This document shows positions 24,321 through 62,051 of a stretch of DNA of 64,000 bases, in pieces. Source of the DNA: Aequorivita capsosiphonis DSM 23843 (GTDB lineage: Bacteria > Bacteroidota > Bacteroidia > Flavobacteriales > Flavobacteriaceae); NCBI RefSeq assembly GCF_000429125.1, contig NZ_AUBG01000010.1, forward strand, positions 149,645-213,644, given 5' to 3'. Positions within the stretch are counted from its first letter, which is position 1. Each line of letters starts with the position of its first letter. The notes beneath the pieces are model-generated. The model was given only the letters and a program-made list of their open reading frames with translations. It ran no database searches and had not been told where the DNA came from. Position numbers and translations under genes: made by a program.

Positions 24321-25202
24321 ATGGCAAGAAAAATAGTAGTAAAAGACTTACTAGAAGCTGGTGTACACTTTGGACACCTAACCCGCAAATGGAACCCGAA
24401 CATGGCACCGTATATCTATATGGAGCGTAATGGGATCCACATTATCAATCTTTACAAAACCGCTGCAAAAATTGAAGAAGCTGGAGAGGCTCTTAAAAAA
24501 ATTGCAGGTAGTGGACGCAAAATCCTTTTTGTAGCTACAAAAAAACAAGCAAAAGACATCGTTGCTGAAAAGGCAAAAGCTGCTAACATGCCCTACATTA
24601 CTGAAAGATGGCCTGGTGGTATGCTTACCAACTTTGTTACTATCCGTAAAGCCGTTAAGAAAATGGCTACTATTGATAGAATGAAGCAAGATGGTACTTT
24701 TATGACGCTTTCTAAAAAGGAACGTTTGGCAGTAGATCGTCTTCGTACTAAATTGGAAAAAAACTTAGGTTCTATTTCTGATATGAGCCGTCTTCCTGCA
24801 GCTTTATTTGTTGTTGATACAACTCGTGAGCACATTGCAGTTGCAGAAGCTTTAAAACTTAACATTCCAATCTTTGCCATGGTGGACACCAACAGTGACC
24901 CACGTGTAATTGACTACGTAATCCCTTCAAACGATGATGCTTCAAAATCTATTGATGCTATCATGAGTTTTGTTTCTGAAGCTGTAATCGAAGGTCTTTC
25001 CGAAAGAAAATCTGGTGGAAAAGACGACGAGGATGAAGAAAAAATGGAAAAAGCAGCCAAAAAAGATAAAGCAGCTAAACCTGCTAAGAAAGAAAAGGCT
25101 GAAGTTCCCTCAACTGACAAGGAAGATGTAGAAGCAATGAAAGAAGCTAAGGAACCTGTTCGTCAGAAGTCTAAGAAAGAAGTTCTTAAGGAAGAAGAAT
25201 AA
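24321..25202 (+). CDS. rpsB: 30S ribosomal protein S2
   Basis: Small-subunit protein S2, 293 residues. LLEAGVHFGHLTRKWNPNM at about 9-27 is the family signature, and PIFAMVDTNSDP near 187 is also typical. Beyond the normal end (about residue 230) there is a tail of some 60 residues made mostly of Lys, Glu, Asp and Ala, with repeated KKDKAAK-like runs; such tails are common on S2 in this group, and their role is not known to me. It is followed by tsf, with a hairpin and T-run in the 97-base gap, which would reduce but not abolish read-through. Confidence 0.97.
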   Translation: MARKIVVKDLLEAGVHFGHLTRKWNPNMAPYIYMERNGIHIINLYKTAAKIEEAGEALKKIAGSGRKILFVATKKQAKDIVAEKAKAANMPYITERWPGGMLTNFVTIRKAVKKMATIDRMKQDGTFMTLSKKERLAVDRLRTKLEKNLGSISDMSRLPAALFVVDTTREHIAVAEALKLNIPIFAMVDTNSDPRVIDYVIPSNDDASKSIDAIMSFVSEAVIEGLSERKSGGKDDEDEEKMEKAAKKDKAAKPAKKEKAEVPSTDKEDVEAMKEAKEPVRQKSKKEVLKEEE

Positions 25203-30862: not shown

Positions 30863-32074
30863 TTATTCCTCTTCGCTATATTCATTATATAGAAAATTGT
30901 TATACGGAAAACGGGTAGTGTGTATTTCCTTTACCTTTTCATATAGCATTTTTCGAAATTCATTAAAGTTCTCTTTGTTCAATGCAGAAATAAAAATGGC
31001 TTCACCATTTACTTTGGCCATCCAGGTTTGTTTCCATTCATCTAAAGTATGGTGGGCCGTTGTTTTTTCAGTTATTAAGTCGTCCTCCTCTATTTCCTCG
31101 GGATTATACGCATCAATTTTATTAAAAACCATCACTGTTGGCTTATCTGCACTACCTATCTCGTCTAAGGTTTTATTAACAGAAGCAATATGATGTTCAA
31201 ATGATGGATGACTAATATCAACCACGTGAAGCAATAAATCTGCCTCCCGTACTTCATCCAGCGTACTTTTAAAAGATTCCACTAATTGCGTGGGTAATTT
31301 TCTAATAAAACCAACGGTATCGGTCAACAGAAAAGGAAGGTTTCCAATAACAACTTTTCGAACCGTTGTATCCAATGTTGCAAAAAGTTTATTTTCAGCA
31401 AATACCTCGCTTTTGCTGATTACATTCATCAAAGTAGATTTACCAACGTTTGTATATCCCACAAGAGCCACGCGAACCAATGATCCGCGATTGCCTCTTT
31501 GCACATCCATCTGACGGTCTATTTTCTTTAATTTCTGTTTCAATAGAGTAATACGGTCACGAACAATTCGTCTATCAGTTTCAATCTCGGTTTCACCAGG
31601 GCCGCGCATTCCAATACCACCGCGCTGACGCTCCAAGTGCGTCCACATTCCTGCTAGTCTTGGCAATAAATATTCATATTGAGCCAGTTCAACTTGCGTA
31701 CGCGCATAACTGGTTTGGGCGCGTTGAGCGAAAATATCAAGAATCAAATTGGTTCTATCTATTATTTTACACTGAAGAATTTTTTCAATATTTTTTTGTT
31801 GTGCGGGAGAAAGTTCGTCATCAAAAATAGCAACGCTTATGTCGTTTTCCTCGACATAATTTTTAACCTCGTCCAACTTTCCAGTTCCAATAAAGGTTTT
31901 TGGATTTGGCACTTCCATCTTTTGGGTGAAGCGTTTCGAGACCTCACCTCCAGCGGTGAAGGCCAAAAATTCGAGTTCATCAAGGTACTCCGTTGATTTT
32001 TCCTCGTCTTGATACTGTGTAATCAGGCCGATTAACACTGTTTTTTCATAAGAAATATCCGTTCTTTCAATCAT
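30863..32074 (-). CDS. hflX: GTPase HflX
   Basis: A ribosome-associated GTPase of 403 residues that splits stalled or heat-damaged 70S ribosomes in other bacteria. The N-terminal HflX domain (about 1-180) contains FDDELSPAQQKNIEK and RTNLILDIFAQRAQT and is followed by a coiled coil with GPGETEIETDRR. The G domain follows: G1 GYTNVGKST near 206, G3 DTVGF, and G4 NKID. A short C-terminal region ends in acidic residues. It is a single gene, divergent from the T9SS type B gene; a TAnnTTTG element on the minus strand lies about 90 bases upstream. Confidence 0.95.
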   Translation of the reverse strand: MIERTDISYEKTVLIGLITQYQDEEKSTEYLDELEFLAFTAGGEVSKRFTQKMEVPNPKTFIGTGKLDEVKNYVEENDISVAIFDDELSPAQQKNIEKILQCKIIDRTNLILDIFAQRAQTSYARTQVELAQYEYLLPRLAGMWTHLERQRGGIGMRGPGETEIETDRRIVRDRITLLKQKLKKIDRQMDVQRGNRGSLVRVALVGYTNVGKSTLMNVISKSEVFAENKLFATLDTTVRKVVIGNLPFLLTDTVGFIRKLPTQLVESFKSTLDEVREADLLLHVVDISHPSFEHHIASVNKTLDEIGSADKPTVMVFNKIDAYNPEEIEEDDLITEKTTAHHTLDEWKQTWMAKVNGEAIFISALNKENFNEFRKMLYEKVKEIHTTRFPYNNFLYNEYSEEE

Positions 32075-56740: not shown

Positions 56741-57613
56741 ATGAACATTGCCATTTTATCCCGTGGAGAAGCACTTTACTCCACAAAAAGCTTGCTAAAT
56801 GCTGGGAAAGCAAGAAATCATTCTATGGAAGTTTTGGATCCTTCCTATTGCAATCTGGCCATTGAAAACGGAAAAGCATCACTCTATTATCAAAATGAAT
56901 TAGTTAAGAATCTCCACGCAATCATTCCCAGAATTGGTGCTTCAAATACGTATTATGGAACTAACGTAGTTCGTCATTTTGAGGCTATGAATTTATTTTC
57001 AGTAGTTTCTTCTGAAGGAATAAGTAACAGCCGCGATAAATGGACGTGTTTTCAAATTTTGGCCAAACACCAAATTCCTGTGCCAAAAACATTTTTCGCT
57101 TCCTATTTTGAATTTGAGGAGCAATTGAAAACTTTTAATGACAAACCAATCATCATCAAACTTTTAGAGGGAACCCACGGGGAAGGGGTGATTCTTACCG
57201 AAAGTCCACAAAATGCCTTGGCAACCATAGAGACATTAAATGCCGCCGGAGTTAAATTTCTACTTCAGGAATATATTGAAGAAGCCAAAGGTACCGATAT
57301 AAGAGCGATTGTTGTTGATGGCTTTGTAGTTGCGGCAATGAAACGAAAATCCAAGGCTGGCGATTTCCGCAGTAACCTGCATCGCGGAGGTACTTCAGAA
57401 ATTATTGAGCTTTCTTCCGCAGAAGAAAAAATAGCTATAAAAGCAGCCAAAGCAATGGGACTTGGGTTTTGTGGTGTAGATATCCTGCAATCCAAAAACG
57501 GACCTCTTGTTTTAGAAATCAACAGTACTCCGGGATTGGAAGGCATTGAAAACACTTCAGGAAAAAATGTTTCTAAAAGCGTCATTGGGTTTATTGAACG
57601 GAATAAAAAGTAG
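56741..57613 (+). CDS. RimK-family ATP-grasp ligase, copy 1
   Basis: A 290-residue ATP-grasp enzyme of the RimK family, which in E. coli adds glutamates to the C-terminus of ribosomal protein S6. The N-terminal preATP-grasp part has AIIPRIGAS (about 65-73). The ATP-grasp core has [17 protein letters not shown] (P-loop-like), [28 protein letters not shown], and the magnesium-binding VLEINSTPGLEGIE at the end. It lies about 300 bases before a RimB-like protease, a second RimK and a zinc hydrolase; repeats separate it from them. Two RimK copies suggest different acceptors or different added amino acids. The substrate is not visible. Confidence 0.9.
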   Translation: MNIAILSRGEALYSTKSLLNAGKARNHSMEVLDPSYCNLAIENGKASLYYQNELVKNLHAIIPRIGASNTYYGTNVVRHFEAMNLFSVVSSEGISNSRDKWTCFQILAKHQIPVPKTFFASYFEFEEQLKTFNDKPIIIKLLEGTHGEGVILTESPQNALATIETLNAAGVKFLLQEYIEEAKGTDIRAIVVDGFVVAAMKRKSKAGDFRSNLHRGGTSEIIELSSAEEKIAIKAAKAMGLGFCGVDILQSKNGPLVLEINSTPGLEGIENTSGKNVSKSVIGFIERNKK

Positions 57614-57622
57614 CAGTTTTCA
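57603..57622. repeat. 20-bp direct repeat, left copy (overlaps rimK copy 1 stop)
   Basis: ATAAAAAGTAGCAGTTTTCA includes the last codons and stop of the first rimK gene. The identical 20 bases recur at 57799-57818. Confidence 0.85.
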
Positions 57623-57626
57623 GTTG

Positions 57627-57677
57627 CAGTGGTCAGTGGTCAGTGGTCAGTGGTCAGTGGTCAGTGGTCAGTGGTCA
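57627..57677. repeat. 7-bp tandem repeat (CAGTGGT), 7.3 copies
   Basis: Seven perfect copies of CAGTGGT and a final CA, starting 14 bases after the stop of the first rimK gene. Confidence 0.95.
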
Positions 57678-57798
57678 AAAATTAAAATAAGTTGGCGGCT
57701 TTACAACTTTGCGCGATAAAAAAGCAGCATTATTTAGTATTCAAAATTTATAACCTTGACGTCCATGCGTTGTCGGCAGGTAGGTGACTTTGTGCGAG

Positions 57799-57818
57799 AT
57801 AAAAAGTAGCAGTTTTCA
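57799..57818. repeat. 20-bp direct repeat, right copy
   Basis: Identical to 57603-57622, 196 bases downstream; the pair brackets the heptamer array. Confidence 0.85.
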
Positions 57819-57855
57819 AATAAAATTTAATTTGAATTAGTTTTAGTCGGTTTTC

Positions 57856-57879
57856 GATTTCGATTTCGATTTCGATTTC
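57856..57879. repeat. GATTTC hexamer array (4 copies)
   Basis: Four perfect copies of GATTTC; this is the inverse complement of the GAAATC arrays at 17761-17788 and 22978-23007. Confidence 0.88.
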
Positions 57880-57915
57880 ATTTTCATACCTTGCAATTAT
57901 AAAACCCCTAAAGCA

Positions 57916-58341
57916 TTGAAAATAAATATAGGCAGAATTGATAAAGCAGATTTTCCATTGCTAAATCTCTTTGATATTGAAGTAAAAATAGATACTGGAG
58001 CATACACCTCTTCCATTCATTGTAGAAATATAAAAGTGGAAGACAACTACCTAAGATGTATTTTTTTAGACCAAGAACATCCCAGTTATCACGAAAGGGA
58101 AATCATTTTTGACGAATATGACGTAAAGGTCGTAAAAAGTAGCAATGGCCAATCTGAAGCCAGATATAGAATTAAAACAGAAATCGTTCTTTTCGGAAAA
58201 ACACAACCCATTTATTTAACATTAAGCGACCGTGAAGAAATGCGTTTTCCTGCACTTCTAGGACGAAGTTTTTTAAGTAAAAAATACATGGTTGACATTA
58301 ACAAAACCAATCTTTCCTTCAAACTAAAAACCAAAAAATGA
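57916..58341 (+). CDS. RimB-like retropepsin-fold protease (RimK-associated, formerly ATP-dependent zinc protease family)
   Basis: A 141-residue single-domain aspartic-protease-fold protein. [14 protein letters not shown] (about 23-36) carries the D-T-G-A active-site motif (Asp26), and [17 protein letters not shown] is the matching C-terminal strand-helix. Such half-length retropepsins work as dimers. In Pseudomonas the homologous RimB clips tails made by RimK. The start is TTG at 57916; it gives the family's short N-terminus and no ATG is available upstream. Its stop overlaps the second rimK start by four bases (ATGA), so the two are translationally coupled, which supports a shared function. 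Confidence 0.88.
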
Positions 58342-59210
58342 AAATCAGGATATTATCGTCTAATGCAAATTTATATTCCACCAAACGTCTTGTGGAAGCG
58401 GCTAAAGCAAGAAAGCATGACGTGGAGATAATAAACCATGCCAAGTGCGATATCGTAATTGAAAAGAAGAACCCGGTAATTATTTACAAAGGCCATAAAC
58501 TGGACCATACCGACGCTGTTATCCCGCGTATTGGAGCTTCAGTAACTTTTTATGGAACAGCCGTGGTGCGACAGTTTGAGATGATGCGCGTTTTTACAAC
58601 CACAGAATCCCAGGCGCTGGTTCGTTCCCGAGATAAACTGCGAAGTTTGCAGATACTCTCCCGTGCCGGATTGGGATTACCGAAAACGGTCTTTACCAAC
58701 TATTCCAAAAACGTAGAGGAAATCGTAGATCAAGCCGGTGGTGCGCCCGTTATCATTAAGTTGTTGGAAGGAACACAAGGGATAGGCGTTATATTGGTGG
58801 AAACCCGAAAAGCGGCAGAATCTGTGATTGAAGCTTTCAACAACCTGCAAGCCCGCGTGATTGTTCAAGAATTTATAAAGGAAGCCGGCGGTGCAGATAT
58901 CCGTGCCTTTATTGTGGACGGACAGGTTGTTGGCGCCATGAAACGACAAGGGAAAGAAGGTGAATTTAGAAGTAATTTACACCGTGGCGGATCGGCTTCA
59001 GTGATAAAGCTTACCGATGAAGAAGAAACCGCCGCCCTTAAAGCTGCCAAAGCCATGGGCCTTGGGATTGCGGGAGTAGATATGCTCCAATCTTCTCGTG
59101 GCCCTTTGATCTTAGAGGTGAATTCCTCCCCAGGTTTGGAAGGAATAGAGACTGCAACAGGCAAGGACATTGCAAATACAATCATAAAATATATTGAACG
59201 GAACGTGTAA
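58338..59210 (+). CDS. rimK: RimK-family ATP-grasp ligase, copy 2
   Basis: A 290-residue ATP-grasp ligase, the same length as copy 1 and paralogous to it. Signatures: AVIPRIGAS (about 65-73), [42 protein letters not shown], and [13 protein letters not shown]. This copy is coupled to the RimB-like gene by a four-base overlap and to the aspartoacylase-family gene by a two-base gap, so it is the core ligase of the operon; copy 1 may be a later or separately regulated duplicate. The family adds Glu, or other amino acids, to protein C-termini or small molecules; S6 (rpsF) is not in the window, so the acceptor is unknown. Confidence 0.92.
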
Positions 59211-59212
59211 GT

Positions 59213-60193
59213 ATGGCCAAAAAAGAAGAACGTGATATCGTTATTTTAAATGAACGCATCGCTTTGGGCGAAAGCCGCACGGTAGATTTTAGCATTGCGA
59301 AACTCTACACCTCAACAAAGGTTGAAATCCCGATTATTATAGAACGTTCAAAAATTCCCGGACCAACGGTTTTGATTACGGCTGCAATTCATGGCGATGA
59401 AATAAACGGTGTTGAAATTGTGCGTCAGCTTATTGCCCGAAAATTGAACAAGCCAAAACGAGGGACTATTATCTGTATTCCTATCTTAAACGTTTTTGGA
59501 TTTTTGAATGGCGATCGTTCATTTCCTGATGGAAGGGACCTCAACAGAGTTTTTCCTGGAACCAAATCGGGGTCTTTGGCAAGCCGAGTGGCATATCATT
59601 TTACTAAAAAGATTTTACCGCACGCCGATTATTGTTTAGACTTTCATACAGGTGGCGCAAGTAGATTTAATGCAGCGCAAATTAGAATAAAACCTGGCGA
59701 CGAAAAATTGCTAGAACTCGCAAAGGTTTTTAATGCTCCTTTTACGGTCTATTCTAATACACTTGATAAATCATACCGCAATACCTGCCAAAAGATGGGA
59801 ATACCAGCTTTACTTTTTGAAGGAGGAAAAAGCCAAGAAAGCAATAAGCACATTGCCAAGGAAGGTGTTGATGGCATATTGCGATTCCTGGAACACTTGG
59901 ATATGTTGGGTAAAAAACTACCTGCTCCAGCACCAAACTCAAAAACAGTTATAATTGAAAAAAGCAAATGGATTCGCGCGCACCGAAGTGGTTTACTCCA
60001 CGTAAAAGTTGATTGCAACAAACACGTAGAAAAAGGCGAGTTCCTTGCAACAATTACCGATCCGTACGGAAAAATGCGATTTAAAGTCACCTCCCCTAAC
60101 GAAGGTTACATCATCAATGTAAATCAGTCGCCCATTGTAAATCAAGGAGATGCTATTTTTCATATCTCCACTTTAAATACTGTAGACAACTAA
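59213..60193 (+). CDS. succinylglutamate desuccinylase/aspartoacylase-family zinc hydrolase
   Basis: A 326-residue M14-like zinc hydrolase of the AstE/AspA superfamily. ITAAIHGDEINGVEIV gives zinc ligands His60 and Glu63; LDFHTGG gives the third, His145; DLNRVFPG (about 109-116) and LLFEGGK with a catalytic Glu are also present. The C-terminal 80 residues form the beta-domain typical of the family, with a biotinyl-like turn. Members cleave N-acyl amino acids such as succinylglutamate or N-acetylaspartate. No arginine-succinyl-pathway genes are near; instead the gene is two bases after rimK, so an amide formed by RimK, or a product of RimB, is a plausible substrate. Confidence 0.9.
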   Translation: MAKKEERDIVILNERIALGESRTVDFSIAKLYTSTKVEIPIIIERSKIPGPTVLITAAIHGDEINGVEIVRQLIARKLNKPKRGTIICIPILNVFGFLNGDRSFPDGRDLNRVFPGTKSGSLASRVAYHFTKKILPHADYCLDFHTGGASRFNAAQIRIKPGDEKLLELAKVFNAPFTVYSNTLDKSYRNTCQKMGIPALLFEGGKSQESNKHIAKEGVDGILRFLEHLDMLGKKLPAPAPNSKTVIIEKSKWIRAHRSGLLHVKVDCNKHVEKGEFLATITDPYGKMRFKVTSPNEGYIINVNQSPIVNQGDAIFHISTLNTVDN

Positions 60194-60423
60194 GGTCAGG
60201 AATTGTAGGATTGAGATTTTAGCCTCGATTATTAGCAATAAAATCATAAAATTCTATTAATTTAAAGTTAATGATGGTCTTTTAATTGTCAGTGTTTCCT
60301 GATGCCATTAGATTTGAACTTTTCTGGATTGTACCTAAAAAATTTAGGGTCGCTGGCTTTAAGTGAATTGCCTATTTTTCAATCCTAATTAATCAAATTT
60401 GATATTAATTTTAAAAAACAATT

Positions 60424-60888
60424 ATGTTTAAATCAGTAAAAGTTAAAAGCTTATTTTTATTTGTTGCCATGATGGGAACTTTTGGTCTTTTTGCACAAGT
60501 TGCACAGGAAACCGAAGTTAGCGATGCCGAATTGACGCAATTTGCGAATGCATACAAAGAAATGCAAGTTCAGAATCAAGAAGCACAACAAGAAATGGTG
60601 AAAATTATTGAAGCCGAAGGAATGGACGTACAACGTTTTAGTACAATTCAACAAGCTTCTATGGATCCAAACCAAGAAGTTGAGGCTACGGACGCTGAAA
60701 TGAAAATGCACGACAATGCGATTGCGAAAATGCAACAAATGCAACCTGAATTGGAGAAAAAAGCTTCAGAAAAGATTGTTGCAACAGGTTTAACTATGGA
60801 GCGTTTTGAAGCCATAGCTGCTGTTATACAAAAAGATCAAGGTTTGCAACAACGCTTACAGGCGATTTTAATGAAAAATCAGGGATAA
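60424..60888 (+). CDS. DUF4168 domain exported protein
   Basis: A 154-residue protein with a signal peptide (about 1-25, ending GLFAQ) and a helical body rich in Gln, Met and Ala. The DUF4168 pattern is seen twice: DAELTQFANAYKEMQ and later DAEMKMHDNAIAKMQQ, each followed by a GMDVQRF or GLTMERF.AI segment, so it is an internal duplication of a helical unit of about 65 residues. The function is unknown and the location periplasmic. It has a clear terminator and probably its own promoter, though I see no consensus element. Confidence 0.85.
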   Translation: MFKSVKVKSLFLFVAMMGTFGLFAQVAQETEVSDAELTQFANAYKEMQVQNQEAQQEMVKIIEAEGMDVQRFSTIQQASMDPNQEVEATDAEMKMHDNAIAKMQQMQPELEKKASEKIVATGLTMERFEAIAAVIQKDQGLQQRLQAILMKNQG

Positions 60889-60911
60889 AAAATTATTCCT
60901 TAAGAATTATG

Positions 60912-60940
60912 AGAGAGGTGATTTTCACCTCTCTTTTTTT
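60912..60940 (+). terminator. terminator after the DUF4168 gene
   Basis: AGAGAGGTGA (60912-60921) pairs with TCACCTCTCT (60925-60934) around TTT and is followed by a T-run. Confidence 0.92.
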
Positions 60941-61047
60941 ATGGAATTCACTTTTATAGCAACAGTCTTCTAAGTTTAAAACTAACTTTATAATACTTGA
61001 TTCTAATGGATGACAATTAAGAACTTCAAAGAATAAATCAATTCATC

Positions 61048-61055
61048 TATATTTG
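61048..61055 (+). promoter_or_regulatory. putative -7 element of the 5-formyl-THF cyclo-ligase gene
   Basis: TATATTTG fits TAnnTTTG, 63 bases before the ATG. No TTG at standard spacing. Confidence 0.45.
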
Positions 61056-61117
61056 TGTGAATTTCCTTTTAAGAATTTTCTCAACTTGAAAACTTTTGAA
61101 GCCATTCAAATAAACCA

Positions 61118-61702
61118 ATGACTGATAAACTTACATTAAGAAAAAAATATAAAAAACTTCGCGAAACAATTTCGGAAGATTCCATGGAAGAAATGAGTCT
61201 TGAAATTGCAAATCAAGCCTTAAAACTGTCCATTTGGGATAAAACGTATTATCATATCTTCCTTCCTATTTCAGAAAAAAAAGAAGTAAACACAGAATAT
61301 CTTATGCATATTCTACAAGGGAAGGACAAAAGCATCGTGGTTTCAAAAGCGGATTTTTCAACCGGTGAAATGACACATTTTTTACTACAGGAAAACACAG
61401 TTTTAAAAAATTCGAAATACGGGATTCCAGAACCAGTATCCGGGATTGAAATTTCCGCCGAAATAATTGAAGTAGTCTTTGTGCCGCTGTTGGCTTATGG
61501 CAAAAACGGGCATCGCATAGGCTACGGAAAAGGGTTTTATGATCGATTTTTAGAGAAATGTAATCCCAACACAAAGTTTGTTGGGCTTTCTTTTTTTCAA
61601 CCCGAACCAGAAATTTCTTTTGAAGCAAATGATGTTCCTTTAGATTTTTGTGTCACCCCACAAAATATATTTGATTTTACAGATAAGAAGCTATCTTTAT
61701 AA
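61118..61702 (+). CDS. 5-formyltetrahydrofolate cyclo-ligase
   Basis: A 194-residue enzyme that uses ATP to turn 5-formyl-THF into 5,10-methenyl-THF, recovering folate. The opening LRKKYKKLRETIS is the family's basic helix, and VFVPLLAYGKNGHRIGYGKGFYDRFL (about 131-156, overlapping the P-loop-like GxGxGxYD) is its signature. Length matches the family. It is followed 34 bases later by a small membrane protein pair of unrelated function. Confidence 0.94.
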   Translation: MTDKLTLRKKYKKLRETISEDSMEEMSLEIANQALKLSIWDKTYYHIFLPISEKKEVNTEYLMHILQGKDKSIVVSKADFSTGEMTHFLLQENTVLKNSKYGIPEPVSGIEISAEIIEVVFVPLLAYGKNGHRIGYGKGFYDRFLEKCNPNTKFVGLSFFQPEPEISFEANDVPLDFCVTPQNIFDFTDKKLSL

Positions 61703-61736: not shown

Positions 61737-62051
61737 ATGGAAACACCAAGCAACCCACCAATGGGAACTCCCGAGCCTAATCAACCTATGAGTCCTCCAC
61801 CCGACAACAATTTAGTATGGGCAATACTTTGCACCGTATTATGCTGCATGCCTTTAGGAATTGTATCGATTATTAAATCTACCCAAGTAAAAGAACTATG
61901 GCTCAAGGGTGATACTGCTGGAGCGCAAAAAGCAGCTAATGACGCTAAGAAATGGGCCATTTGGGGCGCCGTTATTGGCCCGGTTATTTATATCCTTTTT
62001 TTGGTTGTGTATTTTTTGATTTTTGGTCTTTATGCTCTTGGAAGCTACTAA
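61737..62051 (+). CDS. CD225/dispanin-like small membrane protein
   Basis: A 104-residue protein with a Pro-rich cytoplasmic N-terminus (about 1-28) and two hydrophobic segments. The first (NLVWAILCTVLCCMPLGIVSI, about 29-49) with the following VKELWLKGDTAGAQKAANDAKKWA linker is the CD225 pattern, shared with the interferon-induced transmembrane and dispanin proteins of animals; the second hydrophobic segment is at about 75-100. The double Cys in the first helix is typical. In bacteria the role is unknown. Its end overlaps the next gene by 20 bases, so the two are co-expressed. Confidence 0.88.
   Translation: METPSNPPMGTPEPNQPMSPPPDNNLVWAILCTVLCCMPLGIVSIIKSTQVKELWLKGDTAGAQKAANDAKKWAIWGAVIGPVIYILFLVVYFLIFGLYALGSY

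Follow-up and report, generated by a model that had tools for sequence, protein, structure and literature searches.

The question raised by this locus is why a zinc hydrolase of the AstE/AspA family should be encoded together with two RimK-type ligases and a RimB-like protease. The locus belongs to a stretch of 64,000 nucleotides (nt) from Aequorivita capsosiphonis DSM 23843 (contig NZ_AUBG01000010.1, positions 149,645 to 213,644), hereafter the window, in which four neighbouring open reading frames (ORFs) at positions 56741-60193 of the plus strand encode RimK1, the RimB-like protease, RimK2 and the hydrolase (Table 1). Our favoured answer, to which we give close to an even chance, is that these genes make up a Rim-type module for C-terminal glutamylation to which an eraser has been added, and that its acceptor would be ribosomal protein S2 (perhaps L17) instead of S6. 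A preliminary description of this DNA had listed two RimKs, a RimB homologue with a DTGA motif and an AstE/AspA hydrolase with HxxE and His ligands, and had described the last three genes as coupled. ORFs, Pfam matches and residues bear out this gene content, and the coupling also stands, with an ATGA overlap of 4 bases between RimB and RimK2 (58338-58341) followed by a 2-base spacing between RimK2 and the hydrolase. Because RimK1 lies 302 nt away from RimB, the tight coupling is confined to these three genes. Short tandem repeats are found in the RimK1-RimB gap at 57627-57677 and 57852-57879 (units GTGGTCA and TTTCGA).

The arrangement was followed in 149 Flavobacteriaceae genomes from 148 genera, which were searched for the hydrolase, PF05618 and PF18030 and in which the positions of the matches were compared. 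With a threshold of 200 bits, 111 hydrolase copies were counted; in 108 a RimK gene comes immediately before the hydrolase in the same orientation, and three have none there. The order among the 108 RimK-linked copies was RimK-hydrolase (KA) in 53, RimB-RimK-hydrolase (BKA) in 44 and RimK-RimB-RimK-hydrolase (KBKA) in 11, and RimB was also present at 55 of the 111 loci. Eighteen weaker rows, below 200 bits, were kept apart: 16 had no adjacent RimK (one being a contig-end piece), and the other two are pieces of one gene beside RimK. RimBK hybrids, counted as open frames of at least 400 amino acids (aa), were found in 25 of the 149 genomes, never together with a separate RimB in that sample. We also surveyed 198 Bacteroidota genomes, taking hydrolase matches of at least 300 bits and dropping weaker ones together with one sub-cut-off RimK match (G217). 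Without correction for relatedness, all 61 hydrolase genomes of this set have RimK, hybrids included, and 61 of the 66 RimK genomes have the hydrolase. A RimB domain is carried by 54 of these 61 hydrolase genomes, and RimK and hydrolase are adjacent in 47.

Among the best 80 named hydrolase loci, 43 were BKA and 17 KA, and the five best (four of them from Aequorivita) encode hydrolases 87-94% identical to that of the window. Within the genus, 22 of 24 loci, the window's own included, have the order RimB-RimK2-hydrolase; the exceptions are L015, which is cut by a contig end, and L003 (G012), which has other frames upstream of the hydrolase. L003 retains the hydrolase and a cyclo-ligase gene, and a DNA cytosine methyltransferase-like frame with a partner (identified by eye) occupies the position of RimB and RimK2. 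The gene order persists in differing surroundings, including uvrC plus the cyclo-ligase gene, sdh-like and nuo-like genes (both by eye), DUF952 and others. Outside the phylum, BKA is annotated in Salinivibrio, Phaeobacter inhibens and Acaryochloris, and the order RimK-hydrolase-RimB in two Vibrio species, while Photobacterium showed BKA in one unannotated record and KA in another. In three haloarchaeal records the hydrolase is divergent from a RimK-RimB fusion; in one of them (L387, 2503-3885) Pfam puts the RimK domain first, opposite to the order in bacterial RimBK hybrids. Judged by gene content, ligase and hydrolase are the steady unit, RimB is a frequent member and RimK1 an extra of one clade. 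The ligase-protease-hydrolase set proposed in the preliminary description is thus strongly supported by its conservation in Flavobacteriaceae, Bacteroidota and outside the phylum, and the rarity of neighbouring genes elsewhere that might have spoken against it was not seen at 108/111 and 47/61 adjacent.

Both ligases match PF08443 and PF18030 (199.6 and 114.8 bits for RimK1; 222.3 and 142.1 bits for RimK2). RimK2 reaches 384.7 bits on NCBIfam NF007764, the S6--L-glutamate ligase equivalog (cut-off 331), and its residues 1-289 align gap-free to PDB entry 7qyr, a "probable alpha-L-glutamate ligase"; RimK1, with 286.7 bits, stays under the cut-off. Seven residues of the Pseudomonas aeruginosa RimK (S7, R8, S14, R64, S68, R189 and N262) contact poly-glutamate (poly-Glu) (PMC10092738; this and all other papers given by PMC number were available in part, and what we take from them refers to those parts). 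Six of the seven are kept in both window RimKs, and the remaining one, R8, is retained by RimK1 but replaced by Ser in RimK2. The earlier suggestion that the two ligases might differ in amino acid or acceptor found no support in these comparisons, as the contact residues are, R8 aside, kept in both enzymes. A separate amino acid for RimK1 was dropped, these residues giving no hint of one. In a quick tree of 94 RimKs, the RimK1 clade includes the additional copies from KBKA loci together with four sole RimKs directly beside a hydrolase (L037, L174, L210 and L213); both RimK lineages therefore seem, from this distribution, to act in one shared pathway, which likewise speaks against a separate role for the second ligase. 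A single-RimK genome (G043), moreover, has both the S2 and the L17 tails ending in Glu-Glu-Glu (EEE). RimBK hybrids form one group in the same tree. Their RimK domains have Ala at position 7 in 24/25 cases and Gln at position 202 in 20/25, and most deviate at positions 7, 8 and 202. RimK-like genes are also found in cyanophages, with 33-35% identity to RimK2 in the 15 records listed out of 28 (best listed, 34.8%).

The RimB-like protein scores 64.1 bits on PF05618, over the Pfam cut-off of 27, and 53.7 bits on NCBIfam RimB, short of the equivalog cut-off of 200. Its catalytic DTG motif is intact (IDTGA, residues 25-29), and weak matches were obtained in the PDB (9g59, 2pma and 9g58). By analogy with Pseudomonas RimB, this protein would cut poly-Glu tails.

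The hydrolase is a member of the AstE/AspA family by Pfam (PF24827, AstE_AspA_cat, 131.1 bits against a cut-off of 25). Among NCBIfam models it matches the DoeB deacetylase best, at 103.1 bits far under the cut-off of 402.7, and the succinylglutamate desuccinylase model (astE) gave 20.9 bits, not reaching its cut-off of 170. Eleven positions are identical in 91/91 non-redundant RimK-linked hydrolases: the HxxE and His ligands and the catalytic Glu (H60, E63, H145 and E203), and R102, N111, R112, R158, R189, W253 and R255. Among them, N111-R112 presumably holds an alpha-carboxylate, the role of the Asn-Arg pair in the AstE/AspA fold. Position 71 is Arg in 90/91 RimK-linked sequences and Gln in 22/29 unlinked ones. 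An AlphaFold model of the protein (predicted local distance difference test score, pLDDT, 91.3) was compared with known structures by VIA-align, which gave Z 35.3 to 3cdx, an uncharacterised family member, 34.5 to product-bound DoeB (6twm), 27.0 to CphZ (8eip), 17-18 to AstE (succinylglutamate desuccinylase) and aspartoacylase, and ~16-17 to M14 carboxypeptidases. The Foldseek list for the model includes the tubulin deglutamylase CCP5 at a template modelling (TM) score of 0.47-0.48; CCP5 was not among the 50 VIA-align entries shown. RimK-linked hydrolases are basic, with a mean net charge of +10.7 and a positive charge in 91/91. Where a linked hydrolase could be paired with an unlinked paralogue of the same genome (12 pairs formable out of 16 genomes), the linked one was the more basic in 12/12, and five RimK-linked hydrolases from outside Bacteroidota have net charges of +2 to +10. 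This charge suits an acidic substrate in the bacterial enzymes, without identifying one. Hydrolase frames with an in-frame stop were observed in L178 (G093) and other matches, G093 also being without RimK beside the hydrolase.

RimK of Escherichia coli and Pseudomonas extends the Glu end of ribosomal protein S6. In Flavobacteriaceae, 0/70 S6 proteins end in Glu or Asp, RimK present or absent, which makes S6 an implausible acceptor there, and we rejected it as the target for this family. The S6 tail is basic in the family and ends in ...RNRNKKSA in the window genome. Beyond this main set we took 36 genomes, 30 of them with loci; leaving aside three with no S6 frame and one misread (G246), 26 were counted, from other Bacteroidota families plus one more Flavobacteriaceae genome. 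In 12 of these 26, S6 ends in Asp or Glu, all within three families, where they make up 12/16. Other Glu-ended proteins of the window genome were sought with a 12-base pattern for Glu-Glu-Glu-stop, which gave 22 matches vs 11 for the reversed control. Most of the 22 lie in very short frames, and the real frames include S2, L17 and a GTPase. This GTPase is encoded in the window itself, at 30863-32074 on the minus strand; it is a GTP-binding protein with GTP-bdg_N/M and ribosome-binding GTPase domains, which we take to be HflX-like and which ends in SEEE.

S2 was compared in a sample drawn from 147 genomes with a match, 86 of which were taken (the 30 best-scoring loci and 56 picked by RimK class). 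It could be read in 85 Flavobacteriaceae genomes, G072 giving no frame. At least two terminal Glu residues were found in 39/49 genomes with a stand-alone RimK vs 1/36 without. By class, this tip is present in 37/41 genomes with hydrolase and stand-alone RimK and no hybrid, in 1/4 with hydrolase, RimK and hybrid, in 1/3 with hydrolase and hybrid only, and in 0/10 hybrid-only genomes and 0/23 without any RimK. The comparison of C-termini between genomes with and without the cluster genes, which had been proposed as a check, narrows the question of the target: S6 has no Glu or Asp end either way, and the S2 tip tracks stand-alone RimK. In a simulation of independent evolution on a tree of S2 cores, the observed association was reached in 0/3000 runs, whether one or both traits were simulated. 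Nine path-independent pairs differ in RimK, and S2 changes in the expected direction in four of them, in the opposite direction in none and not at all in five. In the 49 RimK genomes, Glu occupies position -1 of S2 in 45, -2 in 39, -3 in 41 and -4 in 12, which argues for selection on the tip, the preceding tail being variable. L17 ends in EEE or EEEE in the 5/5 genomes read. These patterns make S2 a plausible acceptor in Flavobacteriaceae. As hybrid-only genomes have no S2 tip and the hybrid RimK positions are changed, the target of the RimBK hybrids may differ from that of stand-alone RimK. A long C-terminal extension of S2, ending in GVE or GIE, was observed at L504, L464, L460, L466 and L475.

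Combined into a mechanism, RimK2, and RimK1 where present, would extend the Glu-Glu-Glu end of S2, perhaps that of L17, with L-glutamates in alpha linkage; RimB would cut long Glu tails endoproteolytically and stimulate RimK; and the hydrolase would remove the last Glu residues one by one, or split the oligo-Glu freed by RimB, so that the tail would be reset and Glu recycled. Such a set would resemble the pairing of tubulin glutamylases and M14 deglutamylases, or the trio of cyanophycin synthetase, cyanophycinase and CphZ. The hydrolase would in this way erase the product of RimK, and a writer, a trimmer and an eraser acting on the S2 tail is the reading that would need least. For writer and trimmer, the activities have been described in Pseudomonas (PMC7343187, PMC11957791), where RimB cuts Glu tails endoproteolytically and stimulates RimK (PMC11957791). 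In P. fluorescens, S6 Glu tails are also lost independently of RimB (PMC7343187), and a second eraser is therefore not far-fetched in general. A bolder version, which we hold to be somewhat more probably wrong than right, is that flavobacteria have a reversible ribosome-tail code, with RimK-type polyglutamylation shifted from S6 to S2 (plus L17) and a dedicated AstE-family deglutamylase as the eraser, and that the same set answers ionic or osmotic change across marine bacteria.

Several points weigh against this mechanism. What supports it is sequence comparison, from which the RimK activities, trimming by RimB, the activity of the hydrolase and the S2 target in this cluster are all inferred. 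No RimB is found beside 56/111 Flavobacteriaceae hydrolase copies, and a three-part action is therefore not general. RimK and hydrolase are unlinked in 14/61 Bacteroidota pairs, eight of these in one genus with a RimBK hybrid, and 20 of the best 80 named loci, many from Flavobacterium, have no RimK beside the hydrolase. Charge and predicted fold do not single out a substrate: among named functions a deacetylase (DoeB) comes nearest in fold, and net charges of -13 to -19 were found for the three haloarchaeal hydrolases that lie beside RimK-RimB fusions; haloarchaeal proteins are usually acidic. As for the acceptor, the genomes for the S2 comparison were not drawn at random, and the tip is present in only 1/4 genomes with RimK and without hydrolase, so that RimK and hydrolase are inseparable as its correlate. 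With an S2 change in only four of the nine pairs, phylogenetic replication is modest. Seven of 45 genomes with hydrolase and RimK have no Glu-Glu end (G078, G090, G168, G064, G039, G074 and G172), the last four having an extended S2 that ends in GVE or GIE. Other proteins of the window genome also end in EEE, and the L17 ends come from RimK-bearing genomes only and thus have no RimK-less control.

The main rival may be a soluble poly-alpha-glutamate, or tail modification may itself be a salt response. In the former case, which we regard as unlikely but worth serious attention, RimK would make free oligo- or poly-alpha-glutamate, RimB would cut it and the hydrolase would split the fragments, much as in the cyanophycin pathway; the polymer would give fewer osmotically active particles while keeping the charge for K+ and Mg2+, serving ionic or osmotic shifts, and S2 tails would be a side issue. 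It draws on the stimulation of poly-alpha-Glu synthesis by RimK through Pseudomonas RimB (PMC11957791), on the structural relationship of CphZ to the hydrolase, on Photobacterium damselae, in which rimK at 1% NaCl stands 52-fold, and MgtE 5-fold, above its level at 3% (PMC10308900), and on the importance of RimB-like Rlo proteases, which go with an ATP-grasp protein, under hypo-osmotic stress in P. aeruginosa (PMC12239564). Gene neighbourhoods point the same way, since a channel or cation transporter gene (MscS, MgtE, CorA, ZntB or a cation:proton antiporter) lies within ~5 kb in 6/6 annotated RimK-linked records opened outside Bacteroidota, compared with 3/30 control windows of 10 kb, which were taken from six of the replicons used; a single haloarchaeon accounts for the three. 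The list of transporters was, however, picked after the loci had been seen, and any inorganic-ion transporter is found in ~11/30 control windows. Two of the six records are from sister species (further Salinivibrio and Vibrio matches lie outside the count), 0/3 haloarchaeal RimBK-linked loci have such a transporter and 4/9 hydrolase loci without RimK do, and the partly annotated Bacteroidota neighbours showed one Na/H exchanger (L355). Soluble poly-Glu also leaves the covariation of S2 with RimK unexplained. Diguanylate cyclase-type genes were observed near 3/6 of the annotated RimK-linked records outside Bacteroidota.

Three further explanations appear far less probable. That the hydrolase is an unrelated passenger of a classical system, in which RimK glutamylates S6 and RimB trims it, is very improbable: RimK2 does exceed the S6-Glu ligase equivalog cut-off, and most S6 proteins read in three other Bacteroidota families have an acidic end, but none does in Flavobacteriaceae (NKKSA in the window genome), and the co-occurrence of RimK and hydrolase is too regular for a passenger. 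Hardly better is the chance that RimK lengthens the tail of folate or another cofactor by alpha-glutamylation and the hydrolase shortens it. In 25 of the 38 surveyed loci with the hydrolase, the cyclo-ligase gene is the next one downstream, and in 23 of these the two genes overlap or lie no more than 20 nt apart; RimK relatives MptN and CofF act, by their family names, on cofactors. All 25 loci belong to what is apparently one synteny block, though, and the neighbour was seen neither in the other Flavobacteriaceae block nor in the other families read; because of this confinement the folate link is only a weak rival, and both window RimKs fall under the MptN and CofF cut-offs. Vertebrate RimK-like enzymes make dipeptides of the N-acetylaspartylglutamate type, and a corresponding small-molecule pathway, in which RimK joins Glu to an N-acyl amino acid and an aspartoacylase-like enzyme cleaves the product, would account for the aspartoacylase fold (Z 17-18). 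We consider it most improbable as well, given that the hydrolase fold is nearer to DoeB and CphZ, that the linked hydrolases are so basic on average (+10.7), and that a recurring third neighbour of the unit was not found across families in the loci surveyed. Brain papers name a RimK-like gene and aspartoacylase.

If glutamylation of S2 is retained as the preferred reading, the hydrolase would be a missing Rim partner, an eraser accompanying RimK across Bacteroidota, and S2 a concrete candidate for the RimK target in bacteria whose S6 has no Glu end. Should S2 prove to accept the tail, regulated heterogeneity of ribosomes would be a widespread trait of Flavobacteriaceae, ribosomes of which start translation without Shine-Dalgarno pairing (PMC9976891). 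The distribution of rimB and rimK has been surveyed in 5959 accessions, and the available part of that study leaves open that RimK may have other targets where S6 has no Glu (PMC11957791). Among the open-access papers listed, we found none linking bacterial RimK to an AstE/AspA hydrolase or to S2, although older neighbourhood studies may have been missed.

Table 1. Positions, within the window, of the cluster genes, the proposed acceptor gene and the neighbouring cyclo-ligase gene.
Feature	Position	Strand	Remarks
RimK1	56741-57613	+	290 aa; second, diverged RimK-type ATP-grasp ligase; extra of one clade
RimB-like retropepsin-type aspartic protease	57916-58341	+	141 aa, TTG start, DTGA intact
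DTGA codons, RimB-like protease	57991-58002	+	D26 codon at 57991-57993
RimK2	58338-59210	+	290 aa; main ligase, RimK equivalog
AstE/AspA-family zinc hydrolase	59213-60193	+	326 aa; proposed remover of C-terminal Glu
HxxE zinc-ligand codons (H60..E63), hydrolase	59390-59401	+	
rpsB, ribosomal protein S2	24321-25202	+	PF00318, 303.7 bits; proposed acceptor, encoded C-terminus ...KEVLKEEE
EEE-stop codons of S2 (GAAGAAGAATAA)	25191-25202	+	
5-formyltetrahydrofolate cyclo-ligase	61118-61702	+	PF01812; synteny-block neighbour, not proposed as part of the module

Downstream of the cluster (60194-61117), a gene for a DUF4168 protein, 230 nt past the hydrolase, sits between the hydrolase and cyclo-ligase genes. 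The window differs in this from most relatives of the clade, in which the two genes overlap or lie close. Further on, a small CD225-domain protein (61737-62051) adjoins a DUF2752 protein, a pair retained in several relatives.

The module can finally be set beside systems that are already known. CphZ, the cyanophycin dipeptide hydrolase, has a related fold (Z 27) and finishes the breakdown of an ATP-made polymer, but the window hydrolase is only 16-17% identical to it and the CphZ substrate is a beta-aspartyl dipeptide (PMC10206079). No cyanophycin synthetase or cyanophycinase genes were noticed in the surveyed loci, where neighbours are partly annotated and the genome was not searched for them. 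DoeB/EutE deacetylases are among the closest folds (Z 34.5, 24% identity); unlike them, the hydrolase is linked to RimK and reaches 103 of the 402.7 bits needed. The tubulin TTLL glutamylases and CCP deglutamylases offer an analogy, pairing an ATP-grasp writer with an M14-type Glu eraser, but they are eukaryotic, and the hydrolase fold is only distantly similar, as the CCP5 score indicates (TM 0.47-0.48). The Rlo system of P. aeruginosa also combines a RimB-like protease with an ATP-grasp protein, whereas its proteases have signal peptides and a partner, RloB, and no such hydrolase is named in the available part of that paper (PMC12239564).

Closer still are the Rim systems themselves. RimBK hybrids (PMC11957791) contain both domains, but they form a separate clade with positions 7 and 202 changed, and S2 has no Glu-Glu end in 10/10 hybrid-only genomes. 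The E. coli RimK that acts on S6 resembles RimK2, which reaches the equivalog cut-off; the window differs in having a protease and a hydrolase in the operon, two RimKs and another likely acceptor. With P. fluorescens RimABK, as far as the available parts of PMC7343187 and PMC11957791 describe it, the cluster shares the adjacency of RimB and RimK, the DTG motif and the poly-Glu contacts of RimK. It differs in that no RimA was seen in the window operon, that an AstE/AspA hydrolase is present, and that in Flavobacteriaceae it is S2, and not S6, that has a Glu end.

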